A DNA stretch of 64,000 nt, from positions 2,451,501 to 2,515,500 of the forward strand of contig NZ_CP142394.1 in the NCBI RefSeq assembly GCF_035930445.1. Direction: 5' to 3'. This DNA comes from Sphingopyxis chilensis. Lineage in GTDB: Bacteria > Pseudomonadota > Alphaproteobacteria > Sphingomonadales > Sphingomonadaceae. Made by a program: the position numbers and the translations under genes. The notes beneath the pieces are model-generated. The model saw only the letters and a program-made list of their open reading frames with translations. It did not search any database and was not told where the DNA came from. Shown here one piece after another: positions 5,575 to 22,873 of this stretch; position 1 is the first letter of the stretch, and each line of letters opens with the position of its first letter.

Positions 5575-6756
5575 CTATTTCCCCTGCGCCGCGAGCACGC
5601 GCAGGATGTTGCCGCTCCACATCTTCTCGATGTCGACGTCCGAATAACCCGCCGCCTTCAGCCGCTCGGTGACCTTGGGCAGCGCCGAGACATCCTCAAT
5701 GCCCGGCAGTCCGCCGCCGCCGTCCCAGTCGGCGCCGAAGCAGATATGGTCGACGCCGCCGACCTCGATCGCGCGCAGCACCATCGTCATATAGGCGTCG
5801 AAATCGGCCGCCCACAATTTTTCGGTCTTGTCGAGTTCGCGCCACTGGCGGTTGAGGTCGGCCTGCTCGGCGGGCGAGAGCGTGCCGATCCGTTCATATT
5901 TGCCGAACAGCTCGCCGCGCGCGGGCGACATGTTCATCTCCGACATGAAGATCGTCGAGATGCACATGGCGCCGCCCTTCGCCGCGAGCGCCTTCAATCG
6001 GCCCTCGTCGAGGTTGCGCGGATGGTCATAGGCCGATCGCAGGCTCGAGTGCGAAAGCAGGATCGGATATTTCGACAGCGCCAATAGCTGGTCGAACGCC
6101 GCGTCGGACGAATGGCTCGCATCGATCACGATGCCGAGGCGGTTCATCTCTGCGACCCACTGTTTGCCGAGCGGGCTCAGCCCTTTCCAGCGCCCAGCCC
6201 CCGTCGCGCTGTCGGCGAACTGATTGTCCTTCGAATGCACCGGCCCCGCGAGGCGCAGGCCCTTGTCGTAAAATTCCTGAAGCAGCGAAAGGTCTTCGCC
6301 GAGCGGATAGCTGTTCTCCATCGACTTGAAGGCGATCAGCTTGCCTTCCTTGTTCAGCCGCAGCGCATCGGGTGCCGTCAAGGCGGGAGCGATGACTTCG
6401 GGATATTTGGCGATGGTGCTGTCGATCAGGTCCGAACGCTTGCGCGCGAAGGCGAGTGCATCGGCGTAACCCTTTGGCGTCAATGGCCCCTGCTCGGTGT
6501 AGATGGCGAAAAAGCCGCCGTCGAGATTGCCGTCCTTCATCCGCGGAATGTCGAGCTGCGAAATGTCGTCGGCGAGCGCGTGACGATCGGCAAAGCTCCA
6601 GCCCGCGCGTTCGAAATGGAGCGGGGTGTCGAGGTGCGTGTCGAGCACGAGCATCCGGCTGTGCAGCGGCGCGTCGGGCGCCTCCTTCGGCTTGTCGCCT
6701 CCGGTCGAGCAGGCCGTGAGTGCCGTTGCGGCCAGCAGGATCGCGATATGCTTCAT
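5575..6756 (-). CDS. Membrane dipeptidase (peptidase M19), lipoprotein
   Basis: This zinc dipeptidase of the renal-dipeptidase family has 393 residues and hydrolyses dipeptides, including those with a C-terminal D-residue. The N-terminus is a lipoprotein signal with lipobox LTAC and Cys16, so the enzyme should be anchored to a membrane facing the periplasm or surface. The metal-site motifs look intact: LDTHLDTP (HxD), KSMENSYPLG (Glu), DASHSSDAAF (His) and LSHSSLRSAYDHPRN (His), followed by CFGADWDGG. It is the last gene of the minus-strand operon. Its ATG overlaps the upstream stop as ATGA. With the Tat-exported homologue at 12715-13857 it gives the operon two M19 enzymes, one apparently canonical and one not. 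Confidence 0.92.
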   Translation of the reverse strand: MKHIAILLAATALTACSTGGDKPKEAPDAPLHSRMLVLDTHLDTPLHFERAGWSFADRHALADDISQLDIPRMKDGNLDGGFFAIYTEQGPLTPKGYADALAFARKRSDLIDSTIAKYPEVIAPALTAPDALRLNKEGKLIAFKSMENSYPLGEDLSLLQEFYDKGLRLAGPVHSKDNQFADSATGAGRWKGLSPLGKQWVAEMNRLGIVIDASHSSDAAFDQLLALSKYPILLSHSSLRSAYDHPRNLDEGRLKALAAKGGAMCISTIFMSEMNMSPARGELFGKYERIGTLSPAEQADLNRQWRELDKTEKLWAADFDAYMTMVLRAIEVGGVDHICFGADWDGGGGLPGIEDVSALPKVTERLKAAGYSDVDIEKMWSGNILRVLAAQGK

Positions 6757-8330
6757 TTCGTGTCCTCCACGGGCTTCAAATCCAGATCGTGATAGTCCCA
6801 GCTGAAGTCGGCGATCTGGCTCACCGCCTTCATCGTCACGCCCGTCACCTTGCCGTCGGCGTCGAGCGCGAAGGTGACATAGGCGGGCTCGATCGCCGGA
6901 TCGTCGAACTTGGTGACGAAGCTGTCATATTGCCAATGCTCGAGCCGCCCCGCCATCCGCGGCGTCGAGGTGAAATCGATCGTCAGCCCGTTCGCGCCCG
7001 ACCCCACGACGACATCGCCATACCAGGGATCGCGGTAGCGCCCGGCGTAGCGCGCCAGCGCGAGCGAGGGACCGCTCTGCGCCGGCGACGCCTTCGACTG
7101 CTTCAGGAACGCCTCGCCCCCCGCGAGCCGCGCCTGATACCAGTCTTCCCACTTCTGGATCCAGCCATACTCGCCCTGGTCCAGATAATGATCGAGAAGG
7201 TCGTAGGTGAGGCCGAGGAGCATCCCGCTGTCCTCGCTGTTCATCATGATCGCGAAGCCGACATTTTTGTCGGGGATCATGACGACGCGCGTGATCGACC
7301 CGAAGACGCCGCCGCCGTGCTGGATGATGCGGTGGCCGCGATAATCCTGCACCTGCCAGCCGAGCGCATAGGCCTGCTGCGTCGGCTGCGCGGGCTTGAG
7401 CTGGTCGGGAAGCGGCGTGATCGGCATCGGTGTCACCGGCGCCCACATTTCCGCCGCCTGCTTCTCGCTGAACAGGCGTTTTCCGTTGGGGAGCGCGCCG
7501 TGCGCAAGCTGGATCTTGAGCCACGCCGCCATGTCGTCGGCGCTGAGCGCGAGCCCGCCAGCGGGGGCGCCGTTGCGGCCGAGCTCGTCGCGTTCGTCGA
7601 GCGCCTGTTGCGGGCCCAGCCCACGCAGCGCGCCCGACAGCCGGGCGTGCGGCCAGCTGCGGTTCGCGATACGGAATCGGTCTTCGCTGTCGCTCGTCGC
7701 ATTCTTCATGCCGCCGGCGCGCAGCACGCGGGCGCGGATGAAATCCTCCCACGTCTGCCCGGTGACTTCCTCGATCAGCTGACCCGCGACGGCATAGAGG
7801 ATATTGTCATAGGCATAGGCCGAGCGAAAACTCGTCTTGGGCTTCAAATAGGCGACGCGCTCGACCGTCTGCTTGCGCGTCAGATGCGTGCGCGGCACGA
7901 ACATCAGGTCCCCCTGCCCCAGCCCCAGCCCACTTCTATGGACAAGCAGGTCGCGGATCGTGATCTCGCGGGTTACCCAGGCGTCGTACATGCGGAACCA
8001 AGGCATATGTTTGATCACCGGATCGTCCCACGCGATCTTGCCTTCGTCGACGAGGATCGCAAGCGCCGCGGCGGTCATCGCCTTGCCGGTCGATCCGGTC
8101 TGGAAGATCGTCTGCGCATCGACCGGCGCGCGCTCGCCGAGCTTGCGCACGCCCCAGCCGCGCGACAACGTCGTCTTGCTGTCCTCGACGATCGCGATCG
8201 ACACGCCCGCCGCGCCGACCTTCTTGCGCAGCGCCTCGACGCTTTCGCCGATGTCGGCGGGCGGCTCGGCCCATGCGGGCGCGGCGACCGACAGCATCAG
8301 CGACAGGGCGAGCAGGCGAACGGCTTTCAT
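6753..8330 (-). CDS. Exported serine hydrolase of the beta-lactamase (class C)/esterase family
   Basis: This periplasmic hydrolase has 525 residues. A signal peptide ends at about APAWA. The class C penicillin-binding fold is supported by the SxxK motif in QTGSTGKAM, a YxN-like motif (YAYDNILYAV) and the HGGG motif late in the domain (IIQHGGGVFGS). A C-terminal domain of about 130 residues, typical of DUF3471-type tails, follows. The ATG at 8330 overlaps the upstream YkvI stop and the stop overlaps the M19 start, both as ATGA. Members of the family include D-aminopeptidases, esterases and beta-lactamases. In this context a D-amino-acid peptidase or amidase role is plausible but not shown. Confidence 0.88.
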   Translation of the reverse strand: MKAVRLLALSLMLSVAAPAWAEPPADIGESVEALRKKVGAAGVSIAIVEDSKTTLSRGWGVRKLGERAPVDAQTIFQTGSTGKAMTAAALAILVDEGKIAWDDPVIKHMPWFRMYDAWVTREITIRDLLVHRSGLGLGQGDLMFVPRTHLTRKQTVERVAYLKPKTSFRSAYAYDNILYAVAGQLIEEVTGQTWEDFIRARVLRAGGMKNATSDSEDRFRIANRSWPHARLSGALRGLGPQQALDERDELGRNGAPAGGLALSADDMAAWLKIQLAHGALPNGKRLFSEKQAAEMWAPVTPMPITPLPDQLKPAQPTQQAYALGWQVQDYRGHRIIQHGGGVFGSITRVVMIPDKNVGFAIMMNSEDSGMLLGLTYDLLDHYLDQGEYGWIQKWEDWYQARLAGGEAFLKQSKASPAQSGPSLALARYAGRYRDPWYGDVVVGSGANGLTIDFTSTPRMAGRLEHWQYDSFVTKFDDPAIEPAYVTFALDADGKVTGVTMKAVSQIADFSWDYHDLDLKPVEDTK

Positions 8331-9466
8331 GGCAAGGCCTCCATTTGGGGAGCGGGTGCGGGACGAAGCAGGCGCCAGGTCCCGATCGTCAGCAAGGGCA
8401 GAACGAAGACCGCGAGGAAAAGCCAGGCGAGGAAACGATAGCCACTGGCGATCAGGTCGACGAGACCGACGCGCGCAGCGACGAACATGCAGCCGACAAG
8501 AACGAGCGTCCCGATCGCGGCGCGCGGGCCGGTGCCGAGCGGCGGCCGCCCGCGCGCCTCGACGACGCCCGAGACGCGTTCGTTGATCGCATGGATCGCG
8601 CCGACGCCGCTTTCGAGCAGCGCGGCAAAGATCATCATCTGGAACAATATATGAAAGCCCGGCACGGCCATCTGCCGCAGCAGGAAATCCGAAGGCAAGG
8701 TTTCGCTGCCGATCGCAGGGTAAAAAGCCATCATCGCGACGAAGAAGAGGATTGCCGGCAGCATCGTCAGCGGCCCCGCGATCAGCCCCGCGACGACTGC
8801 GTCGCGCTGGCTGGTGAGGTGGCGGAGGACGGGCAGGATGACGACCGCACCGACGATATTATAACTCGCATAGGTGATGCCGCCCGCCACCCAATTGCCC
8901 GACGGCGGCGGCGCATTCGCGAAGCCGCTTCCGATCATTTCGCCAAAGCTGGCGAGCGCGAACACAAGGAACAGCGCATAGACCGCGTAGATCAGCATCG
9001 AGGCATATTTGAACAATGTCTCGACAAGCGCCGTGCCGAAGGCGGTGAAACCGAGGATGCTGAGCGCCAGCAGCACCGACCCGGCGAGGTCGGGCCAGCC
9101 GAAGGTCGCTGCGCCGATCGCGCCCGCCGCCGCACCGAATACCGCGATGATCAACACGACGAAAATCAGATAGGCGCCTTCGAACGCGATCCAGGCGGGG
9201 CCGAGCAGGCCTTCGAAGAAGCTGCGGTAGTCATAAGCCTGCATCCGGCGCGCGAGCGCGAAGGTCAGCGCCGCGACGATGCTCCAGATCAAGGTCGCGA
9301 GCAGCATCGCGGCCAGCCCGCCCCACGGCCCCGACGGCACGAAATATTCGGCCAGCTCGCGCCCCGTGGCATAGCCGCCGCCGATGATGACGGCCTTCAA
9401 CGCGAAACCGGGCAGCAGGAAGCGCTGGAACCAGCTCGACCTGCCACCCGTCTCGCCCACACTCAT
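8327..9466 (-). CDS. YkvI-like integral membrane protein, putative transporter
   Basis: This polytopic inner-membrane protein has 379 residues and roughly ten hydrophobic segments. It resembles the uncharacterised YkvI family, which is related to the LeuT-fold amino acid transporters. The N-terminal stretch VIIGGGYATGRELAEYF, with a glycine-rich break in the first helix, fits substrate binding in that fold. It is coupled by ATGA overlaps to the DgcN-like gene before it and the serine hydrolase after it. By position it is the obvious candidate for bringing the product of the periplasmic peptidases (D-Glu or a dipeptide) into the cytoplasm. The substrate is inference. Confidence 0.75.
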   Translation of the reverse strand: MSVGETGGRSSWFQRFLLPGFALKAVIIGGGYATGRELAEYFVPSGPWGGLAAMLLATLIWSIVAALTFALARRMQAYDYRSFFEGLLGPAWIAFEGAYLIFVVLIIAVFGAAAGAIGAATFGWPDLAGSVLLALSILGFTAFGTALVETLFKYASMLIYAVYALFLVFALASFGEMIGSGFANAPPPSGNWVAGGITYASYNIVGAVVILPVLRHLTSQRDAVVAGLIAGPLTMLPAILFFVAMMAFYPAIGSETLPSDFLLRQMAVPGFHILFQMMIFAALLESGVGAIHAINERVSGVVEARGRPPLGTGPRAAIGTLVLVGCMFVAARVGLVDLIASGYRFLAWLFLAVFVLPLLTIGTWRLLRPAPAPQMEALP

Positions 9467-10503
9467 GCGAGACAGTTTTCGACGAGCGCGTCGAACGACG
9501 CGCCGCCGCGGATCGGGTCGGCTACGGGCAACCCCAGCCGTTGCCGTTCGGCCGCCATCAGCGCCTCGGCGGCATCGGCGTCATAGGCCGAGGTGTTGAG
9601 GCTCACCCCGCCGCAGCGGATCGCCGGATTGGTCCGGCTGCCGAGGCGGATCGTCAGGTCGATCACCTCCTCGATGCTGGGAAGCGCGAAACTTTCCATG
9701 CCCAGGATCACCTTGCGCGCCGGATCGTGGCAGACGACGAACACGTCGGGCTGACTGCCGTGGAGCAGGCCAAGCGATACCGCGGCATAGGCAGGATTGA
9801 AGATCGACCCCTGCCCCTCCACCAGGTCCCAATGGTCTTCGGGCGCGTCGGGGCTCAATATCTCCGCCGCCCCCGCCTCGAAATCGGAGACCACCGCGTC
9901 CATCGGCATCCCGCCGCCCGCGATCATGATCCCGGTCTGGCCGGTGGCGCGAAAATCGGCGTCGATTCCGCGCGCGACAAAGGCCCGATGGAGCGCGAGC
10001 GCGGTATATTTCTTGCCGAGCGCGCAATCGGTGCCAACCGTCAGCAGGCGCTTGCCGCTGCGCTTGCGGCCGTTGGCGATCGGGATCGACGGCGGCGGCG
10101 TGCGCACGTCGATCAGCCGCTGGCCGGTCCGTTTCGCAGCCTCGACGAGCGCGGGGATGCTCGTCAGCCGTGTGTGGAGCCCGCTGACAATGTCGAGCCC
10201 CGCCTCCATCGCCTCGACAAGCACGGCGACCCAGGCGTCGCCGATGACGCCGCCCTGGTTCGCGACGCCGATCACCAACGACTGCGCTCCCGCCGCGCGG
10301 GCCTCGTCAGGCGACAGCCGCGGCAAGCCGGCGCTGACCGAGCAGGCGCCGATCCCATACTCGCCGACGCAGCGGTCAGCCGCCCAGTCGGCGAGGCCAA
10401 AGGCGGTCTTGGCATAGCCCGCCTCGGTCGTGTCGCCGAGGAACAGCAGATAGGGTTGCGGCAGGGTCAGGCTTTCGGCCAGCCTGCCGGTGGGCGCGTT
10501 CAT
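9463..10503 (-). CDS. dgcN: DUF1611 protein, DgcN-like D-glutamate N-acetyltransferase candidate
   Basis: This cytoplasmic protein of 346 residues belongs to the DUF1611 family. It has a Walker A-like loop GTDCALGKKYT near residue 155, followed by ATGQTGIMIAGGG, DHWDLVEGQGS and the conserved VVCHDPARK. In marine bacteria a member of this family, DgcN, is reported to acetylate D-glutamate, and its partner DgcA racemises N-acetyl-D-glutamate. A DgcA-like enzyme lies four genes upstream in this operon. I use the ATG at 10503, preceded by TTGGAG, rather than the in-frame TTG at 10518. The stop overlaps the YkvI start as ATGA. The family call is strong; the activity is inferred from homology and the DgcA neighbour. 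Confidence 0.8.
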   Translation of the reverse strand: MNAPTGRLAESLTLPQPYLLFLGDTTEAGYAKTAFGLADWAADRCVGEYGIGACSVSAGLPRLSPDEARAAGAQSLVIGVANQGGVIGDAWVAVLVEAMEAGLDIVSGLHTRLTSIPALVEAAKRTGQRLIDVRTPPPSIPIANGRKRSGKRLLTVGTDCALGKKYTALALHRAFVARGIDADFRATGQTGIMIAGGGMPMDAVVSDFEAGAAEILSPDAPEDHWDLVEGQGSIFNPAYAAVSLGLLHGSQPDVFVVCHDPARKVILGMESFALPSIEEVIDLTIRLGSRTNPAIRCGGVSLNTSAYDADAAEALMAAERQRLGLPVADPIRGGASFDALVENCLA

Positions 10504-10523
10504 CTTGTCCAACTCCAATTCGC

Positions 10524-12710
10524 TCAGAATGCCATGTCGAGCGCGACACCGATCGTGCGCGGCTGCAATGGCGAGATCGCTAGGAAGCTCGGCTGGTTGA
10601 GCCCGTCGGCAAGCGTCGACCGCGCCATCTCGCCCTTGTTGTCGAGCAGATTGCGCGCATAGGCGCGCAGCGTCCAGTGATCATCGAAGGTCACCGACGC
10701 ATTGAGGTCGACCGAGGTGTAAGCCTTGGCGCGCGCGACGAGCGGATCGCTCTCGACGAGCGACAGGCGGTTGCTCGCGTGGCGGATGCCGGCGCCGAAG
10801 CTGCCCCGGTTGCCGCCGCCCAGCTCGAACGCATAATCGGCGCGCAGCGCGCCGCTGAACTTGGGTACAGCGGGCAAGCGGTCGCCGTCGAGGCCGCTGA
10901 TATCGGGCACATCCTCGCTGAGGCTCGCGTCGGTGTAGCTTCCGGTCGCACTGATCGTCAGGCCAGGCGCCGGGCGTAGCGCGAGGCTACCCTCGAAGCC
11001 CTTGCTCGTCGCCTTGCCGCCGTTCGCGCCGCCCGACACGCCGCCGAAAGCGCGCGTGACCTGGATATCGGTCCAGTCCATCCAGAAGAAGGCGGCATCG
11101 ACCGACACCATGCGGTCGGCGAAGTCGGCTTTCAGCCCGACCTCGTAATTGGTCATGCGGTCGGCATCGACGCTGGGCGGGACATTGGGGACGATGACGT
11201 TCGGGCCGCCGGGGCGATAGCCCGTCGCGACGCGCGCATAGAGCATGGCGTCTTCGTTGATATGGAACTGCGGGCTGACCGAGAAGGTCCAGACGCTTTC
11301 GGCCGACTCGCCCGGATCATTGGCGCTGGGGACGATCGCCCCCGAGCTGATCTGGGTAAAGGTCTGCTCGTTGCGCGCCCAGCGAAGGCCGCCGGTCACC
11401 TCGAACTGCTCGCTCAGCTTGAAAGTCGCATTGCCGAAGATCGCATATTCCTTGTAGGTCGCCGGAAGGCCGACGATCGCCAGCGGATCGAGCGGCGCGA
11501 TGACATTGCCGTCCATATCGAACGAGCGGACAAGCTGCGCATTGCTCGTCTCTTCATCGGTGAAGAAGCCGCCGATCATCCATTCGAAACGCCCGCCGCT
11601 CGGCGAAGCGAGACGGACTTCCTGCGTCCATTTCTTGAGCCCGAGGTCGAGCGAGAAAGGTGTGATGCCGGGATCGATGGCACCGCCGGTGAGCAGCGGG
11701 AAAAGCACGCCGAACGCATAGCTCGCGTCCTGTACCTGCCGGCTCTGCGTTTTGCTGTAGGTCGTCGCAGACGTCAGCGTCGCCGCGCCGAAATCATAGT
11801 CGATCGTCGCCGAATAATAATCGAGATCGACGTCGTAGGATTCGGGCACATAATTGTTGAACGAATGGCCGTTGCCCAAACGGTTGCCGTCGAGATCGGC
11901 GGCATAGAGGCCATTGCCGTCAGAATCGAGCGACTGCCAGATGCCGGCGAGCTTTACACTGAGCTCGGGGGTCGGCTGCCACAGCAGCGCGGCGCGACCG
12001 CCGCGCTGTTCATAGTCGTTCTGGTCCTTGAGCGCGGCATTGTTGACGCTGTCGACCCAGCCCGGCGTCTTGCGCCATGCGAAGCTGCCCGAAATCGCGA
12101 GCGTGTCGGTCGCAATCGGCGCATTGACATAGACCTGCCCACCCCAGCCGAGGCTGCCGGCGTCCTTGATCGTGAAACCTTCGACGCCCGCGCGCACCTT
12201 GAATTCGCGCGTGTCGGGCTGGACGGTAACATATTTGACCAGGCCGCCGATCGAACTCGCGCCATAGAGCGTGCCCTGCGGGCCTTTGAGCACTTCGATG
12301 CGTTCGAGGTCATAGGGCATGAGGTCGATGGTGAACTGCCCAGCGCGGTTATAGAGCGCGCTCGACCCGACCGGCGCATCGTCGAGATAGATGCCGACCG
12401 TCTGGCTGGCATTGAGCGGTGCGACGCCGCGCAGCGTGATCGTCGTCTGGCCAGGCGTGCCGCCGTTGCTGACGTTCATGCCGGGAACATAGCCCGCATA
12501 GTCGACGAGCGAGGCCGAGCCCTGTTCCTGCAGTTCCTCGCCGCTGACCACCGAGATCGAGATCGGCACGTCCTGCACATTCTGAACGCGCTTCTGTGCG
12601 GTCACAACGATCTCGCCCGCGGCTTCGATCGCCCCCGCTTCCTGCGCCTGTACCGGCATCGCGGCGATCACCGCGACCATGCTTGCTGCTACCAAAAGTC
12701 CCTTGTTCAT
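10524..12710 (-). CDS. TonB-dependent receptor of the D-Glu/dipeptide operon
   Basis: This outer-membrane receptor has 728 residues. The signal peptide ends at PVQAQ and is followed by a TonB-box-like GEIVVTAQKR. The plug contains DVPISISVVSGEEL, GVAPLNASQTVGIYLDDAP and LERIEVLKGPQGTLYG. The C-terminal beta-strand ends in Phe (ALDMAF), as expected for outer-membrane barrels. The ATG at 12710, preceded by GGGTAAG, is preferred over the upstream in-frame alternative at 12755. It lies 4 bp after the M19 dipeptidase stop and 20 bp before dgcN, so it is embedded in the operon and probably imports its substrate, perhaps peptides or muropeptides (inference). Confidence 0.92.
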   Translation of the reverse strand: MNKGLLVAASMVAVIAAMPVQAQEAGAIEAAGEIVVTAQKRVQNVQDVPISISVVSGEELQEQGSASLVDYAGYVPGMNVSNGGTPGQTTITLRGVAPLNASQTVGIYLDDAPVGSSALYNRAGQFTIDLMPYDLERIEVLKGPQGTLYGASSIGGLVKYVTVQPDTREFKVRAGVEGFTIKDAGSLGWGGQVYVNAPIATDTLAISGSFAWRKTPGWVDSVNNAALKDQNDYEQRGGRAALLWQPTPELSVKLAGIWQSLDSDGNGLYAADLDGNRLGNGHSFNNYVPESYDVDLDYYSATIDYDFGAATLTSATTYSKTQSRQVQDASYAFGVLFPLLTGGAIDPGITPFSLDLGLKKWTQEVRLASPSGGRFEWMIGGFFTDEETSNAQLVRSFDMDGNVIAPLDPLAIVGLPATYKEYAIFGNATFKLSEQFEVTGGLRWARNEQTFTQISSGAIVPSANDPGESAESVWTFSVSPQFHINEDAMLYARVATGYRPGGPNVIVPNVPPSVDADRMTNYEVGLKADFADRMVSVDAAFFWMDWTDIQVTRAFGGVSGGANGGKATSKGFEGSLALRPAPGLTISATGSYTDASLSEDVPDISGLDGDRLPAVPKFSGALRADYAFELGGGNRGSFGAGIRHASNRLSLVESDPLVARAKAYTSVDLNASVTFDDHWTLRAYARNLLDNKGEMARSTLADGLNQPSFLAISPLQPRTIGVALDMAF

Positions 12711-12714
12711 CGTC

Positions 12715-13857
12715 TTACCCCCAGACTTGGGCGAGCAGGCGGCGGAAATTGCCACCGAGCACGGCCCGGATGTTATCGTTCGAATAGTTGCGGCGAATGA
12801 GTTCCTCGACGAGGTCGAAGGTCTTCAATGGATGGTCGAAACCATCGATGTCGATCTTGTCTCGAAAGGCGTAGCTGTCCTTGTAGGCGCCCTTCAGCAC
12901 GGCATATTCATCAGGCTTCATGTCGTCATAGCCGTGAAGGTCCGCGTCGGAGCCGATGCCGACATGATCAATGCCGACGAGCTTTGCGACATGGTCGATA
13001 TGATCGGCCATGTGCCCGACATGGGTGGGGTCGGTGCTGCGCACGAACATGCGCACGCCGGTGATGCCCATCACCCCGCCCTTTGCCGCGAGCGCCTTAA
13101 TCGCTTCGTCGGTCTTGACGCGCGGATGATCAACGAGAGCGCGGGCATTGCTGTGCGTGATCGCGATCGGCCCCTTGGCGATGTCGATGGCGTCGAGCGT
13201 CGTCCGGTCGCCGCAATGCGAGACGTCGACGAGCATCTTCTGCTTTTCCATTTCGGTGATAATCGCTGCGCCATAGTCGCTGACGCCGCCGTCGACGCGA
13301 TCGGTGCTGCCCGATCCGATGCGGTTCTGGCTGTTATAGGTAAGCTGCGAACAGCGCAGGCCGAGGCGGCGGAACAGCGCGACGTCCGCGACCGTCTCGA
13401 AATGCTCGGCGTTCTGGATGCCCATGATGACAGCGCATTTGCCCTCGGATTTCGCGCGGTCGAGATCGGCGGCGGTATCGACGAGGGTGAAGACGTGGCT
13501 GTTGCGTCCCGCAAAGCCCTGCCAGCCTGCGAGGAAGGTCAACGCCTGTTGCTTTGCGTCAGGTCCGCCGAGGCCATAGGCATTGTGGAAACCGGTGATA
13601 CCCGACGCCTTGAACTCCGCCGCCTCGGCATCAGTCAGCCGGTGCGCCACATAATCTTCTTCCAGCGTGATCTTGAGCGGCGCGAGCATGTCGATGACGA
13701 GCGAGGAAGCGACGAGGTCAACCGTGCGGCGCGAATAGGCCTTTGCGGGCGCCGCAGCGAAGGCATAGGCGCCGCGACCCACCATCGGCGCGGACAAAGT
13801 GACCCCGACCGCGCCCGCGAGTGCCGCGCGGCGCGTCATCGGGAATGACGTCGTCAT
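12715..13857 (-). CDS. Tat-exported M19 dipeptidase homologue with altered HxD motif
   Basis: This renal-dipeptidase-family protein has 380 residues and a twin-arginine signal (MTRRAALAGA, residues 7-16). Most metal-site regions are recognisable: IQNAEHFE (Glu), DVSHCGD (His), ITHSNARALVDHPR (His) and IGSDADLHG (Asp). The N-terminal HxD ligand pair, canonical in the lipoprotein homologue at 5575-6756, is replaced here by DMLAP (residues 56-60). Two zinc ligands are therefore missing and the site may be mononuclear or otherwise altered. The ATG at 13857 has a strong AAGGAGG. It starts 84 bp after dgcA, behind a promoter-like site. It may act on dipeptides with D-residues or on a different substrate. 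Confidence 0.88.
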   Translation of the reverse strand: MTTSFPMTRRAALAGAVGVTLSAPMVGRGAYAFAAAPAKAYSRRTVDLVASSLVIDMLAPLKITLEEDYVAHRLTDAEAAEFKASGITGFHNAYGLGGPDAKQQALTFLAGWQGFAGRNSHVFTLVDTAADLDRAKSEGKCAVIMGIQNAEHFETVADVALFRRLGLRCSQLTYNSQNRIGSGSTDRVDGGVSDYGAAIITEMEKQKMLVDVSHCGDRTTLDAIDIAKGPIAITHSNARALVDHPRVKTDEAIKALAAKGGVMGITGVRMFVRSTDPTHVGHMADHIDHVAKLVGIDHVGIGSDADLHGYDDMKPDEYAVLKGAYKDSYAFRDKIDIDGFDHPLKTFDLVEELIRRNYSNDNIRAVLGGNFRRLLAQVWG

Positions 13858-13895
13858 TCCAGCCTCCTTCTTACGAAAATCTCAATTTCAAGACT

Positions 13896-13945
13896 ATTGT
13901 CCTAATCGGAAAATTGTCAACCCATTTAGGACATCAAATTGTCAC
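13896..13945 (-). promoter_or_regulatory. Promoter/operator-like site upstream of the M19-TonB-dgcN part of the operon
   Basis: On the minus strand a consensus -35 TTGACA reads from 13920 to 13915. It is followed by 17 bp and ATAGTC as a poor -10. The core 13900-13920 matches the site at 17030-17050 at 18 of 21 positions, including the unbroken GAAAATTGTCAA. ATTGTC occurs three times as a direct repeat (13896, 13913, 13938), and TGTCCTAA (13898-13905) mirrors TTAGGACA (13926-13933). I infer an internal promoter controlled by the XRE-cupin regulator at 17070. Confidence 0.5.
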
Positions 13946-14949
13946 GAACCCCAAATTTCCGCCGAACAATGAATCATGCCATCGCGATATTCGACGCCGG
14001 GCACGCGATCGCGCGCAAGAAAGGTCGGCCCGTCGAGATCCACGATGTCGCACAGCTGCCCGACCAGGTAGGAGGGTGCCATCGACAGGCTTGTGCCCAT
14101 CATGTTGCCGACCATCACGTCGAGGCCGAGCTTCTTCGCCTGCCGCGCGATCGCCAGCCCCTCGGTCAGCCCGCCACATTTATCGAGCTTGATGTTCACG
14201 ACGTCGAAGCGCCCGACAAGCGAGGCGGTGTCGGTAAGTGACAGCGCGCTTTCGTCGGCGACGAAGGGCAAGGGCCGCTTGAGGCCGTCGAGATCGGCCT
14301 CGCGCCCGCGTTTCAATGGCTGCTCGAGCTGCGCGATGCGCATCGAGACGAGAACCGGCAGCAGGTCGGAAAGCGTGCCGATGTCATAACCCTGATTGGC
14401 ATCGACGCCGATCCACGCATCGGGCCGCGCCGTGCGGATTGCGACGACCCGCGCGATGTCGTCTGTCAAATCGCCGGTCAGCTTGACCTTGACCGGGGCT
14501 TGCGCGTCGATCGCCAGTGCGGCTTTCGCCATATTGTCCGGGCTGTCGGCGCCCAGAGTCAGCGTCGATCGCAGTGCTTTCGGGGATTCCAGCCCGGCAA
14601 GCTCCCACACGGGGCGGCCCGCCTGCTTGGCTTCGAGATCCCAGAAAGCACAGTCGAGCGCATTGCGGGCACCGCCGGGCGGAAGGAGCTGTTGCAGTTC
14701 CGCGCGCGTCGCGCCCTGCTCGATCGCATCGCGCACGCCGGTCGCTTCGGCGAGCATATGATCGATATCGTCGCCGAGATAATAGACCCCGGCCCCCTCC
14801 CCGCGCCCGACATGCGAGCCGTCGGATATCTCGGCGACGAGCAGCGCGGTTTCGGTGAAGACATGCCCCGAAATGCGGAACGGCTGATGATAGGGAAAAC
14901 GCTCGACCCGAAGGTCGAGCGTCATTTTCTGCCTGCTCTGCGTCGCCAT
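13942..14949 (-). CDS. dgcA: Enolase-superfamily epimerase: DgcA-like N-acetyl-D-Glu racemase or L-Ala-D/L-Glu epimerase
   Basis: This enolase-superfamily enzyme has 335 residues. The catalytic KxK is in VKVKLTG. The Mg ligands follow in GVDANQGY, AQLEQPL and VADESA, and the second catalytic lysine is in NIKLDKCGG. This signature covers dipeptide epimerases such as YcjG as well as DgcA. Its ATG overlaps the upstream hydrolase stop (TGATG), so the two are coupled. A longer frame extends upstream to 15522 but overlaps the hydrolase gene, so I reject that start; the Met nine residues further in is another option. With dgcN in the same operon, racemisation of N-acetyl-D-Glu is my first reading, with epimerisation of murein-derived L-Ala-D-Glu second. 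Class call firm, substrate open. Confidence 0.85.
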   Translation of the reverse strand: MATQSRQKMTLDLRVERFPYHQPFRISGHVFTETALLVAEISDGSHVGRGEGAGVYYLGDDIDHMLAEATGVRDAIEQGATRAELQQLLPPGGARNALDCAFWDLEAKQAGRPVWELAGLESPKALRSTLTLGADSPDNMAKAALAIDAQAPVKVKLTGDLTDDIARVVAIRTARPDAWIGVDANQGYDIGTLSDLLPVLVSMRIAQLEQPLKRGREADLDGLKRPLPFVADESALSLTDTASLVGRFDVVNIKLDKCGGLTEGLAIARQAKKLGLDVMVGNMMGTSLSMAPSYLVGQLCDIVDLDGPTFLARDRVPGVEYRDGMIHCSAEIWGS

Positions 14950-16928
14950 CAATAGACCATCCCAAAGCCGTAGAGGTGGAAGACGAGCGTCACCCAGACG
15001 AGTATCAGCGCGGCGAGGATCAGCAGCACCGCGCCGAGCTTCATCGTCCAGCGCCGCTTGTCCTTGATAGCGAGCCACAAGTGCCAGGCGGCCGTCGCGA
15101 GCAGCCCGAAGGCGGCGAGCGGGGTCAGGATGCGCAGCAGGTGGATGAGCCAGTCGAGCGGGCCGCCGATGCTGCCGATGTCGGCCGAGAAGGCGGCGAT
15201 CAACCCGATCCAGCCGACGAGCGCGCCGATCGCGAGCCAGGCGAAGACGCGCGACAGGCGATAGGCGCGGAGCGACTTGCCCGTAAGCGCAAAGTCGGCC
15301 TTGAAGCTGCGGCGGACCATCGCACGCACCGGCCACGCCAGCGCGGCGAGCAGGATGATGCCAAAGGCGAAGATCAGCGCGGGATTGAGCCAGGCGGCGT
15401 TGACGCTGGCAGGCGCGGGTTCGAACACCATGAAAGGCGATCCGGCGTCGACGCTCCACCGCACGACGCGGCCGTCCTTCACCTCGGCGGCAAGCCGCTC
15501 GCCGGTGCCGGTGTCGCGCCACACGAAGGGCTCGACCTCGACCCAGTCGCGCGCGCCCGCGCCGAGCCCGTCGAGCGCCGGAAGGCTGATCTTGCCATCC
15601 TCGGTCAATCCGATCGTCGCCTGTCCCAACAGCCCGAACAGGCTCATGAAGTTGGTGAAGCTGCCACGACTGCTGATGTAATTGCCGACCATCATCTGCG
15701 CGTGCTGCGCGGCGGTCTTGGCATCGACCTGCGCCGGCTTTTCGGCCGGACCCGGCAGGTAGCGGTCGGCGAATTTGTGGAACAGCGCGCTACGCACCGC
15801 GCCCGCCGCGCCGTCCTTGCCTGCGCTGTTCATCGACACGAAGATTCCGACATCGGCATCGGGGAACAGCCAGAGATAGGAGTGGAACCAGACGGTATCG
15901 CCGCCATGCGCAATGGCGCGGTGGCCGTTGACCCATTGCTCATAGAAGCCAAGCGCCATGCTGTTGAGCGGGCCGACGCCGGGCGCCTTGAAATCGTGCA
16001 TCATCTTTGCGGTTTCGGGCTTCATCAGCCCCGCACCGTTGTTCAGATGCGCGATCATGAACTTCGCCATGTCAGCACCGCTCGACGAAAGGCTACCCGC
16101 GGGCGCGGGGATGACCATTTCGAACGGCTCGGGCTTTTGCGTGATGTCGGGATAGCCCTTGGACATATGCGGCGCGAGCCGCGCGGGGAGCGGCTGGCGG
16201 AAAGACGAATGCGCCATGCCGAGCGGCTTGAAGATATGGTTCTCGATATAATTGTCGAAATTTTCGCCGCTGACGCGTTCGACGATATAGCCCGCGAGCG
16301 CCGTCGCATAGTTGGAATAGGCCGGCGTCGTGCCCGGCGCGAAGACGCGTTCGGGCAGCGCGAGCGGCATCTGCTTCTTCAGCGTCATCACCGCCTTGGG
16401 ATCGCTGCTGATCAGGTGGCGCACCGATTCCTCGAAGCCCGCGGTGTGCGTCATGATGTTGCGCATCGTCACCGGCTTGCCCTCAAAGGGCGGGATCTTG
16501 AAATCGAGGTAGGCGTTGACGTCCTTGTCGAGATCGATCTTGCCCGCCTCGACCTGCTGCATCACCGCGGTCCAGGTCAGGAGCTTCGACACCGAACCGG
16601 GGCGGAAAAGCGTGGTCTCGGGCAGGACGGGCGCACGCTTCGCGACATCCGAATAGCCATAGCCCTTCTCAAGCACGACCTCGCCGCCGCGCACGACGAC
16701 GACGACTGCGCCCGGAATGCGTCCGCGTTCGAGCGCATAGGGCAGATATCCGTCCATCCAGGCTTCGAGATCCTTGGGGTCGAGCGAAGCCGGCGCCGCG
16801 GCTGTCTTGGCGGCCGACGCAGTTGCCTCGGCCTTCTTTACGGCAGGCGCGGGCACCGGCCCCTGCGCCGCCAGCGGCAGTGCGGCAAAGGCCGCCAGCC
16901 CGATCATCGCCTTGCGGATGAAACGCAT
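14949..16928 (-). CDS. Serine hydrolase (beta-lactamase family) with C-terminal membrane anchor
   Basis: This class C beta-lactamase/esterase-fold enzyme has 659 residues. A signal peptide ends near LPLAAQG. The catalytic motifs are SxxK in PGSVSKLL, YxN in AYSNYA and HGG in IAHGGDTVW. After about residue 500, four hydrophobic segments form a C-terminal membrane domain, so the catalytic part should face the periplasm while tethered to the inner membrane. The ATG at 16928 is chosen over an upstream in-frame codon at 17000 because the signal peptide begins there. It is the first gene of the minus-strand operon, divergent from the XRE-cupin regulator. It may cleave a D-amino-acid ester or amide; no substrate can be assigned. 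Confidence 0.87.
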   Translation of the reverse strand: MRFIRKAMIGLAAFAALPLAAQGPVPAPAVKKAEATASAAKTAAAPASLDPKDLEAWMDGYLPYALERGRIPGAVVVVVRGGEVVLEKGYGYSDVAKRAPVLPETTLFRPGSVSKLLTWTAVMQQVEAGKIDLDKDVNAYLDFKIPPFEGKPVTMRNIMTHTAGFEESVRHLISSDPKAVMTLKKQMPLALPERVFAPGTTPAYSNYATALAGYIVERVSGENFDNYIENHIFKPLGMAHSSFRQPLPARLAPHMSKGYPDITQKPEPFEMVIPAPAGSLSSSGADMAKFMIAHLNNGAGLMKPETAKMMHDFKAPGVGPLNSMALGFYEQWVNGHRAIAHGGDTVWFHSYLWLFPDADVGIFVSMNSAGKDGAAGAVRSALFHKFADRYLPGPAEKPAQVDAKTAAQHAQMMVGNYISSRGSFTNFMSLFGLLGQATIGLTEDGKISLPALDGLGAGARDWVEVEPFVWRDTGTGERLAAEVKDGRVVRWSVDAGSPFMVFEPAPASVNAAWLNPALIFAFGIILLAALAWPVRAMVRRSFKADFALTGKSLRAYRLSRVFAWLAIGALVGWIGLIAAFSADIGSIGGPLDWLIHLLRILTPLAAFGLLATAAWHLWLAIKDKRRWTMKLGAVLLILAALILVWVTLVFHLYGFGMVY

Positions 16929-17025
16929 CGCTTTCCCCTTTTGTCTGGCGCGTCCTGCAACACCTTGCGGCCAGCCGCGCGACCCCTTACCAAGGGCCAA
17001 CGACTGTTAGCCCGATAGGGACATA

Positions 17026-17052
17026 ATGATCCTGATTAGAAAATTGTCAAAC
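17026..17052 (-). promoter_or_regulatory. Promoter/operator-like site between the operon and its XRE regulator
   Basis: On the minus strand TTGACA (17050-17045) is followed by 17-18 bp and an ATTATG/TTATGT hexamer. The core 17030-17050 is near-identical (18 of 21) to the site at 13900-13920. It sits 102 bp upstream of the hydrolase ATG and 20 bp upstream of the regulator ATG, where binding could also block the regulator's own expression. Autoregulation is inference. Confidence 0.5.
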
Positions 17053-17069
17053 GGGGATTGGAAAAACTG

Positions 17070-17693
17070 ATGGCGGACCGTGCTACCCCGCCGACGCTCG
17101 GCGCGGTGATGAAGGGCATAAGGGCGCGCAACGGCTGGACGCTCAAGGAAATGAGCGCGAAGTCGGGCATTCCTGTTTCGACGCTGTCGAAGGTCGAGCA
17201 CGACCGGCTGACTTTGAGCTACGACAAGCTCCAACAGCTCAGCCAGCGACTCAAGATTCGCATGTCGGACCTCTTCGCAGAGGATGAGGAAGATGCCGCA
17301 CCGCGCGTCACCGGACGCCGCAGCATCGGGACCATCGAACGCGCGGCGCGCGTCACGACCGATAATTACGACTATCACTATCTCTGCACCGATTTGCGCC
17401 AGAAACGGATGATCCCGATCCTGACGCGCATCCGCGCCCACAGCGCGCGCGAATTCGGCGAACTCGTCCATCACCAGGGCGAGGAGTTCATCTATGTCCT
17501 CGAAGGGCGGATCGAGGTGCACAGTGAATTTTACGACCCGGTCACGCTCGACGTTGGCCAGGGCATCTATATCGATTCGTCGATGGGCCACGCCTATGTC
17601 GTCGCCGATGGATATGAGGAGGCGCTGGTGCTCGGCGTCTGCTCGAGCGCCGACGACGGACTGATGGATTCGCTGATGAGCCTGCACGGCTGA
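17070..17693 (+). CDS. XRE-type regulator with C-terminal cupin domain
   Basis: This cytoplasmic transcription factor has 207 residues. A helix-turn-helix of XRE type occupies about residues 10-65 (WTLKEMSAKSGIPVSTLSKVEHDRL contains the recognition region). A cupin sensor domain follows at about 115-200 (HHQGEEFIYVLEGRIEVH, then GHAYVVADG). Regulators of this build often sense an amino-acid-derived or other small ligand of the operon they control. The ATG at 17070 is preferred to the in-frame TTG at 17058. It is divergent from the eight-gene operon and 23 bp upstream of the amidohydrolase gene. The conserved sites at 17030-17050 and 13900-13920 are its likely targets. Confidence 0.88.
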   Translation: MADRATPPTLGAVMKGIRARNGWTLKEMSAKSGIPVSTLSKVEHDRLTLSYDKLQQLSQRLKIRMSDLFAEDEEDAAPRVTGRRSIGTIERAARVTTDNYDYHYLCTDLRQKRMIPILTRIRAHSAREFGELVHHQGEEFIYVLEGRIEVHSEFYDPVTLDVGQGIYIDSSMGHAYVVADGYEEALVLGVCSSADDGLMDSLMSLHG

Positions 17694-17716
17694 CTAACCT
17701 GACCCTGGAGAATGAT

Positions 17717-19414
17717 ATGGCATCGCACCGGCGCTTCGCACCCTCCCTGTTGCTGCTTTGCAGTTCGATGCTCATATCCGCCGCCGCAGTCGCGCAGGCG
17801 CCGGCCTATGACCTGATCATCCGCGGCGGCACGCTCTATGACGGGTCGGGCAAGCCGCCCGTCGTCGGCGATGTCGCAATCAAGGACGATCGCATCGTCG
17901 CGATGGGCAAGATCGACGGAACGGCGAAGAGCGAGGTTTCGGCCAAGGGCATGGCGGTCGCGCCCGGCTTTATCAACATGCTGAGCTGGGCGACCGAATC
18001 GCTGATCGCCGATCCCAGAAGCCAGAGCGATATCCGCCAGGGCGTTACGCTGGAGGTGATGGGCGAAGGCTGGTCGATGGGACCGATGAACGCGGCGATG
18101 AAAGCCCAGGAAACGGAGCGGCAGGGCGACATCAAATATCCGATCGAATGGACGACGCTCGGCGATTATTTCGGCTGGCTCGAAAAACGCGGCATTTCGA
18201 CCAATATCGCAAGCTTCGTCGGCGCGGCGACGGTGCGTGTGCACGAACTGGGCGAGGGCGACGTCGATCCGACCCCCGAGCAGCTTGCCCGGATGCGCGC
18301 GCTGGTGCGACAGGCGATGAACGAGGGTGCGATGGGCGTCGGCAGCTCGATCATCTATGCGCCCGGCTCCTACGCCGAAACCGACGAACTCGTCGCGCTG
18401 ACGAGCGAGGCCGCGAAATGCGGCGGCATGTATATCAGCCACATGCGGTCCGAAGGCGACCGGATCGAGGAGGCGGTCGACGAGTTGATCGACATATCGC
18501 GCCGTTCGGGGGCGCCGGCGGAAATCTATCACCTAAAGATGGCGGGGCGCAGCAATTGGGGCAAGCTCAGCGCGATCGTGAAGAAGATCGAGGATGCCCG
18601 CGCCGCGGGACTGCGGATCACGACCGATATGTATACTTATACCGCGGGCGCCACCGGGCTCGACGCCGCGATGCCGACGTGGGTGCAGGCGGGCGGGCTC
18701 GAGAAGTGGATCGAGCGCCTGAAAGACCCGGCGATCCGCGCCCGCGTTGCCGAGGAAATGAAGAAGCCCGGAAGCGACTGGGAAAATCTCTATTTCGGCG
18801 CGGGCGCTGACAAGATGATCCTGTCGGGGTTCAAGAATGACGCGCTGAAGCCGCTGACCGGCAAGACGCTGGCGGAGGTCGCGGCGATGCGCAGCAAGTC
18901 GCCCGAAGAGACGGCGATGGACCTCGTCGTCGAGGACGGCTCGCGCGTCGGCACCGTCTATTTCCTGATGTCCGAGGACAATGTCCGCAAGCAGATCCAG
19001 CTGCCGTGGATGAGCTTCGGATCCGATGCGGCGTCGCAGGCGCCCGAGGGCGTTTTCCTGAAATCGGGCGCACACCCGCGCACCTATGGCAATTTCGCCC
19101 GGCTGCTCGGCCGCTATGTCCGCGACGAAAAGCTGATCCCGCTCGAACAGGCGGTCTATCGTCTGACCACCCTGCCCGCGACCAATTTGGGGATCAAGGA
19201 TCGCGGGGCGCTCAGGCCCGGCTATTATGCCGATGTCGTGGTGTTCGACCCGGCAGTGATCGGCGACCGGTCGACCTTCGAGAAGCCGCACCAATATTCA
19301 GTCGGCGTGCGCGACGTGTTCGTCAACGGCGTCGCGGTGCTACGGAACGGCGAACATAGCGGCGCGACACCGGGGCGCGCGGTGCGCGGCGCGGGCTTCA
19401 ACCGCTGTTCCTAA
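17717..19414 (+). CDS. Exported amidohydrolase of the N-acyl-D-amino-acid deacylase family, atypical metal site
   Basis: This D-aminoacylase-family amidohydrolase has 565 residues and a signal peptide ending at AAVAQA. The family frame is clear: DLIIRGGTLYDGSGKP, VAPGFI, YISHMRSEGD (His), IYHLKMAGRSNWGK (His) and SFGSDAASQ (Asp), then the usual C-terminal strand with VVVFDP. The HxH pair expected after GFID is Leu89 and Trp91 here (GFINMLSW), and the metal-binding Cys of known D-aminoacylases corresponds to Glu117 (MGEGWSMGP). So one of two metal positions seems lost and the other has a swapped ligand. It is co-directional with the XRE-cupin gene. In a D-Glu operon a deacylase for N-acyl-D-amino acids would fit, but the altered site leaves activity open. 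Confidence 0.82.
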   Translation: MASHRRFAPSLLLLCSSMLISAAAVAQAPAYDLIIRGGTLYDGSGKPPVVGDVAIKDDRIVAMGKIDGTAKSEVSAKGMAVAPGFINMLSWATESLIADPRSQSDIRQGVTLEVMGEGWSMGPMNAAMKAQETERQGDIKYPIEWTTLGDYFGWLEKRGISTNIASFVGAATVRVHELGEGDVDPTPEQLARMRALVRQAMNEGAMGVGSSIIYAPGSYAETDELVALTSEAAKCGGMYISHMRSEGDRIEEAVDELIDISRRSGAPAEIYHLKMAGRSNWGKLSAIVKKIEDARAAGLRITTDMYTYTAGATGLDAAMPTWVQAGGLEKWIERLKDPAIRARVAEEMKKPGSDWENLYFGAGADKMILSGFKNDALKPLTGKTLAEVAAMRSKSPEETAMDLVVEDGSRVGTVYFLMSEDNVRKQIQLPWMSFGSDAASQAPEGVFLKSGAHPRTYGNFARLLGRYVRDEKLIPLEQAVYRLTTLPATNLGIKDRGALRPGYYADVVVFDPAVIGDRSTFEKPHQYSVGVRDVFVNGVAVLRNGEHSGATPGRAVRGAGFNRCS

Positions 19415-22771: not shown

Positions 22772-22873
22772 CACTCATCCTCTCTCAAACACCTTGTCCC
22801 GCGGCTCGTCTTTGTGCGAGCGTCGCGCGAACCGGACCGTGACAGAACAAAGGATTGCGGCGGGGCGAGCAAG

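Follow-up and report, generated by a model that had tools for sequence, protein, structure and literature searches.

The closest described counterpart of the locus reported here is the DgcN–DgcA pathway, which is reportedly a route of D-glutamate catabolism and is said to have been described by Yu et al. in ISME J in 2023. In passages of PMC11747546 its two enzymes are listed as EC 2.3.1.312 and 5.1.1.25; part of PMC8142540 deals with the Lys/Lys chemistry of related racemases, and part of PMC13338154 states that a T. maritima dipeptide epimerase acts on hydrophobic C-terminal residues. Relatives of DgcN and DgcA are encoded in the window, by which we mean the whole 64 000-nucleotide stretch of Sphingopyxis chilensis DNA that was analysed (bases 2451501–2515500 of the single 3.95-Mb contig). 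They belong to an eight-gene operon on the minus strand (5575–16928), which is confirmed as real and as a conserved locus, and which on balance probably scavenges peptides carrying a neutral, non-acidic D-residue by means of a re-specialised DgcN/DgcA pair. That this residue is Leu/Val/Phe-like in particular is a tentative narrowing, to which we give somewhat less than an even chance. The D-residue theme itself is suggested by homology, namely that of DgcN/DgcA and of the relatives of the S12 hydrolases. The features are listed below in the direction of the operon, its start codons having been picked manually; the terms window type, intermediate and canonical are working labels taken from a DgcN tree (quick method, midpoint root).

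17019..17050, minus strand: conserved promoter/operator, TTGACA-16-CATTAT overlapping TCTAATCAGGATCATTATGTCC
14949..16928, minus strand: SH2, S12/beta-lactamase-family hydrolase, exported-looking, with four C-terminal hydrophobic segments (PF00144; hydropathy peaks 516–649)
13942..14949, minus strand: DgcA-like enolase-superfamily racemase, window type with F31 and Y57 in its substrate loops (MR_MLE N and C; NF042940 366 bits, cut-off 400)
12715..13857, minus strand: M19b, membrane-dipeptidase family, Tat-like N-terminus (PF01244 248 bits; PDB 2i5g, 3id7)
10524..12710, minus strand: TonB-dependent outer-membrane receptor (PF00593 and PF07715)
9463..10503, minus strand: DgcN-like (DUF1611) putative N-acetyltransferase, window type (PF07755/PF17396; NF041892 449 bits, cut-off 480; PDB 7xrj)
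8327..9466, minus strand: YkvI-like inner-membrane carrier, LAT/APC fold (no Pfam match)
6753..8330, minus strand: SH1, S12/beta-lactamase-family hydrolase with DUF3471, exported-looking (PF00144, PF11954; PDB 7spn, ClbP, D-amino acid amidase)
5575..6756, minus strand: M19a dipeptidase, lipoprotein-like N-terminus (PF01244 288 bits; PDB 2rag dipeptidase 409 bits)
17070..17693, plus strand: XRE-cupin regulator, divergent (HTH_3 and Cupin_2)
17717..19414, plus strand: Amidohydro_3 protein, deacylase-like, exported-looking, accessory (PF07969; PRK09061 219 bits, below the cut-off of 340)

As the original prediction had it, the eight minus-strand genes are accompanied by a divergent regulator gene and a deacylase-like gene, and four junctions overlap (TGATG at 14949, and ATGA at 9466/9463, 8330/8327 and 6756/6753). 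Pfam recovered the two M19 proteins, the two hydrolases, DUF1611, MR_MLE and the TonB receptor, but gave no match for the YkvI-like protein. Conserved synteny, which it had asked to be looked for, is present in Sphingomonadaceae: when SH2, DgcA, M19b, TonB, DgcN, YkvI, SH1 and M19a are counted on one strand and in that order, 34 of the 67 window-type family loci have no fewer than six of them and ten have all eight (window included). Among the 78 named loci listed, which come partly from the same genomes as the fetched family set, the corresponding numbers are 35 and 13. Since the gene order is kept in many genomes, the arrangement is more than chance.

Like the DgcN–DgcA pathway, the locus has both enzyme families encoded in a single co-oriented gene run, and the catalytic residues of DgcA are kept, whereas the genes for M19b and the TonB receptor lie between the two, a LAT-fold carrier, an XRE-cupin regulator and peptidases are added, the charge in the loop at position 31 of DgcA is lost and both proteins fall short of their NCBIfam families at the scores listed above. 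All 23 window-type DgcN sequences that were scanned match the DgcN model, the best with an E-value of 5.1e-139, which corresponds to an estimated 463 bits or so (from the E-value and score of the window protein), still below 480. A separate pair in the host genome passes both cut-offs, with a second DUF1611 gene beside a DgcA gene at C1:450438–452413 (DgcN 526.5 bits against 480; DgcA 426 bits against 400), in the following locus, L003.

C1:441500–461400: L003 locus, with an SDF-family symporter, LysR, TonB receptors, two Amidohydro_3 deacylase-like genes and two sulfatases

In the original prediction the operon would serve to scavenge peptides of D-glutamate, such as those released from murein, by the DgcN–DgcA route. 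The DgcN and DgcA models are indeed the best of all NCBIfam models for the two window proteins, and passages of the literature describe this route for D-glutamate; the existence of the passing pair elsewhere in the genome, together with the substrate loops, the carrier and the regulator described below, nevertheless makes D-glutamate an unlikely residue for the operon.

The window DgcA is predicted with confidence by AlphaFold 2 (mean predicted local distance difference test score, pLDDT, of 95.2) and superimposes on 4gfi with a template-modelling score of 0.93. Residues K154, K156, D183, E209, D232 and K257 are invariant in 37 sequences, and we take them to be the KxK and NIKLDK lysines and the D/E/D metal ligands; the residues of a 1,1-proton-transfer racemase of the enolase superfamily are thus present. 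The window DgcA shares its fold and proton-transfer residues with the L-Ala-D/L-Glu epimerase (E. coli YcjG, 1jpd) and the dipeptide epimerases, whereas it scores 235 bits against NF011708, below the cut-off of 343. The substrate loops differ between the types: window-type DgcA typically has RISG(H/Y)VF and G(V/A)YYLGDD, whereas canonical DgcA has RISRGx(K/R) and PYPRYGE(S/T), the latter also found in 4gfi and E. coli YcjG, and variants occur in both types. At position 31 all 51 window-type sequences have Phe, whereas the 11 canonical ones have Lys (seven), Arg (three) or Thr (one) and the 11 intermediates have Phe (four), Tyr (three), Gln (two), His (one) or Ser (one). By pairwise alignment, in the latter two cases with the L003 DgcA, this position is Arg in 4gfi and 1jpd, Arg in 3iji (L-Ala-D-Glu; the same protein as the complexes 3iji/3ijq) and Glu in 3rit (L-Arg-D-Lys). 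Because it is Arg in 3iji and Glu in 3rit, position 31 is likely to be the one that reads charge, and Phe at this place speaks against a side chain that is acidic; the ligands named in the PDB titles suggest that the position takes part in binding Glu. At position 57 all 11 canonical sequences have Arg and all 51 window-type ones have Tyr or Phe; this position was tried as a charge reader and dropped.

In DgcN, which is 346 residues long, Ala replaces Arg at two places: residues 41 and 220 are Ala in 65 and 63 of 68 sequences, respectively, and Arg in ten and 11 of the 11 canonical ones. In a DgcA tree of 76 rows (quick method, loop columns included, unrooted), a branch with a Shimodaira–Hasegawa-like approximate likelihood-ratio (SH-aLRT) support of 100 separates the 11 canonical DgcA sequences, 4gfi and the E. 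coli L-Ala-D/L-Glu epimerase YcjG from all 51 window-type sequences and five intermediates. A neutral residue is favoured because of the separate cut-off-passing pair, this DgcA branch, Phe31 and the Arg-to-Ala changes in DgcN, and further because of the linkage to the YkvI-like carrier and to a leucine dehydrogenase.

The neighbourhood of DgcN was contrasted out to a distance of 8 kb for 67 window-type, 23 intermediate and 11 canonical loci (L106 was removed, as it overlaps L062). In this order of types, YkvI is found in 48, zero and zero loci (48 of 67 versus none of the 34 others), XRE-cupin in 50, five and zero, M19 in 37, four and zero, S12 hydrolases in 60, 14 and one, TonB receptors in 50, 18 and eight, DgcA in 51, 11 and 11, deacylase-like genes in 28, eight and seven, and LysR in zero, zero and ten. 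An SDF symporter (of the L003 type or DctA) is present in zero, one and six loci within 8 kb and in one, one and seven within 10 kb. The YkvI-like protein has the LeuT/APC fold, with the LAT/Asc-type carriers BasC (6f2g) and Asc1 (8qey) as relatives at 9–12% identity; no sequence relative was found in the PDB up to an E-value of 10, and a Pfam scan of 37 members gave one weak match to each of two families and none for the window protein. The pairing of the operon with the nearby dctA (884–2218) as a glutamate carrier, which had also been proposed, fell away: the gene product scores 651 bits against the C4-dicarboxylate DctA model (cut-off 513) and 340 bits against GltP (cut-off 638), and since it passes the former and fails the latter it gives no evidence for glutamate.

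A leucine-dehydrogenase gene lies beside the M19a end in five window-type family loci and in 11 of the 78 named loci listed, some genomes being in both sets. For the copy in L087 the best match is leucine dehydrogenase 6acf (299 bits), followed by tryptophan dehydrogenase (230 bits) and phenylalanine dehydrogenase (206 bits), with the best glutamate dehydrogenase at 81 bits. In 50 genomes with DgcN relatives, of which 46 had a match, the copies were divided into subtype I (at least 50% identical to the L087 copy) and subtype II (below 50%). Of the 26 copies of subtype I, eight lie within 6 kb of a DgcN gene (0.23 expected) and 12 within 15 kb (0.58 expected); of the 41 copies of subtype II, none lies within either distance and one lies within 25 kb. 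An aliphatic or aromatic residue (Leu/Val/Ile/Phe-like) would be consistent with this linkage. The loss of charge would suit amide and aliphatic side chains equally well, and peptides of D-glutamine, D-isoglutamine or D-asparagine, whose amide needs no positive charge, would stay near the acidic-residue route; the Phe gained at position 31 in all 51 window-type sequences and the leucine-type dehydrogenase of L087, so distant from glutamate dehydrogenase, make them an improbable substrate.

Several observations weigh against a neutral residue and against the proposed pathway as a whole. The Glu-binding epimerase 3iji (L-Ala-D-Glu) itself aligns with Tyr at position 57, which therefore does not speak against Glu and counts on the side of D-glutamate. 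Intermediates lack Arg at this position, and a third DgcA-like gene of the host, L142 (C1:2962724; 387 bits, below the cut-off; no adjoining DgcN relative), keeps the Lys type of the first loop and has Tyr in the second, so that, position 57 being undecisive, the substrate-loop argument leans on position 31. The LAT fold is compatible with glutamate, xCT with glutamate being among the matches of the YkvI-like protein. The SDF symporter of L003 is below the cut-offs of both DctA (217 bits) and GltP (184 bits), and the DctA gene of the window, at 8.4 kb from DgcN, lies just beyond the 8-kb count and is the sole window-type case of an SDF symporter within 10 kb. Within that distance DgcA was not found in 16 and YkvI not in 19 of the 67 window-type loci, some of which are at contig ends. 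As for the dehydrogenase, the family was chosen post hoc for the linkage test, the eight linked copies are in four genera and are therefore not independent, one linked enzyme (that of L087) was compared with the PDB, and the host genome is without the link, its copies lying at C1:634426 and 1056240 with subtype I 1.8 Mb away. Finally, no deacetylase was recognised among the operon genes, and with 15 M20 matches elsewhere in the host genome, 14 of them over the cut-off, the last step is not assignable to a gene.

The remaining enzymes also have described relatives. M19 enzymes can accept D-residues, and both window proteins belong to Peptidase_M19, exceeding the PF01244 gathering score of 26; compared with the renal-type dipeptidases (2rag, 3id7 and 1itq), the whole domain is matched, whereas the window has two divergent copies in one operon. 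Read by eye, the N-termini of M19a (lipobox-like) and M19b (Tat-like RR) suggest export. The S12 domain is shared with ClbP-type and alkaline D-peptidase hydrolases, and the PDB matches, which are numerous and extend to beta-lactamases, include alkaline D-peptidase and D-amino acid amidase. The best chains for SH2 are 2qmi, 4gdn, 9sn1, 7spn and the alkaline D-peptidase 4y7p; ClbP, which has a membrane tail, is only weakly similar (55 bits for SH2, lower than these chains, and 74 bits for SH1), and SH2 has a hydrophobic C-terminal part. The product of the Amidohydro_3 gene can be called D-aminoacylase-like. Of the scavenging path originally proposed, outer-membrane uptake, exported-looking dipeptidases, S12 hydrolases, the DgcN/DgcA pair and a regulator are supported as components, and D-glutamate as the residue is not supported.

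The scheme that we propose for a neutral D-residue, in which each enzymatic and transport step is deduced from protein families, would run as follows. The TonB receptor would carry the peptide across the outer membrane, and SH1/SH2 and the M19 dipeptidases, with the deacylase-like enzyme where present, would release the D-residue in the periplasm, from where the LAT-fold YkvI carrier would import it. DgcN would then N-acetylate its amino group, DgcA would invert the alpha carbon by 1,1-proton transfer and a deacetylase encoded elsewhere would free the L-amino acid; in several relatives the linked leucine dehydrogenase could go on to deaminate this product. The XRE-cupin protein may control the divergent promoter via a palindromic operator.

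The promoter matches 10 of 12 positions at 17050–17023. Its TCAGGA element occurs in 65 of 97 divergent intergenic regions versus 5.2 in shuffles, and in 63 of 92 versus 4.8 expected after removal of identical cores, near-copies remaining; judged by eye, L084 has a perfect copy of the palindrome AATCAGGAT-N6-ATCCTGATT and L087 a nearly perfect one. The conserved promoter element was counted in favour of a dedicated D-peptide operon. The operator element has one match in the host genome at up to three mismatches and a reversed control has none, so that within this range the regulator probably has no other close target in that genome; the XRE-cupin protein is predicted to bind there. The 84 bases that separate the genes for DgcA and M19b contain a further promoter-like element, TTGACA-16-AATAGT at 13920–13893.

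DgcN relatives occur at an E-value of 1e-30 in 84 of 298 genomes of the family (150 matches, at most seven per genome) and at 1e-60 in 72 of 289 genomes of the class. Outside the family but within the class, DgcN is 45–54% identical among the matches listed, that is canonical-like. The 148 matches outside the own genome were counted by eye; 100 were fetched, and the 48 left are mostly 45–52% identical, with one at 55% and three at 35–37%. In genomes of the same genus DgcN is 91–92% identical to that of the window, and among best matches in named genomes at least 78 loci were found with DgcN at 66–94%. Those listed are from sphingomonads and their kin (Sphingopyxis, Sphingomonas, Sphingobium, Sphingosinicella and erythrobacters) and from gammaproteobacteria (Lysobacter, Dyella, Rudaea, Rhodanobacter, Pseudoxanthomonas, Steroidobacter, Peristeroidobacter and Povalibacter). 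Degradation of natural products with D-residues, such as cyanobacterial heptapeptides, instead of general nutrient scavenging would fit the S12-family hydrolases and the window-type loci in Sphingopyxis microcysteis and Sphingosinicella microcystinivorans, and is very unlikely given the related loci in Lysobacter, Dyella and Steroidobacter, for which we know of no such trait.

In many relatives the TonB receptor at this place is only about 35–41% identical to the references, and some loci have an additional gene inserted, for a POT peptide carrier or for another amidohydrolase. It is possible, although we offer it with reserve, that sphingomonads and several gammaproteobacteria (Lysobacter, Dyella, Steroidobacter and relatives) share modular D-peptide loci, with swappable TonB receptors, an operator of their own and DgcN/DgcA re-specialised for different neutral D-amino acids, which would give residues of the D-Leu/Val/Phe type a route that requires neither a D-amino-acid oxidase or dehydrogenase nor a pyridoxal-phosphate racemase. 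If the neutral residue is correct, the D-glutamate naming of such DgcN/DgcA pairs would be wrong in many genomes of sphingomonads, and Sphingopyxis strains would allow a test of whether neutral D-amino acids are used by a route with neither an oxidase nor a pyridoxal-phosphate racemase. Peptides with D-residues belong to the dead bacterial matter that is turned over slowly. In a limited literature search we found no description of this locus, although one may exist in print, and no paper joining DUF1611 and a dipeptide epimerase.

Some minor features of the relatives were also recorded. A POT-family peptide symporter gene (PF00854) is present in 14 fetched family loci, 13 of window type (including L070, L081 and L098), and in loci of Lysobacter, Dyella and Rudaea. 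Genes for DctA, DctB and DctD all adjoin the locus in two of the 78 named loci listed (L153 and L156), with weaker matches to DctB/DctD in L159 and to DctB in L070. The relatives G085, G201, G242 and G253 have seven DUF1611 matches per genome. Beyond the deacylase-like gene, the window encodes an mpaB/rubber-oxygenase-domain protein (PF09995; 19411–20310) followed by a TonB receptor (20324–22774), and an MpaB relative also adjoins the locus in L147, L150, L153 and L156.

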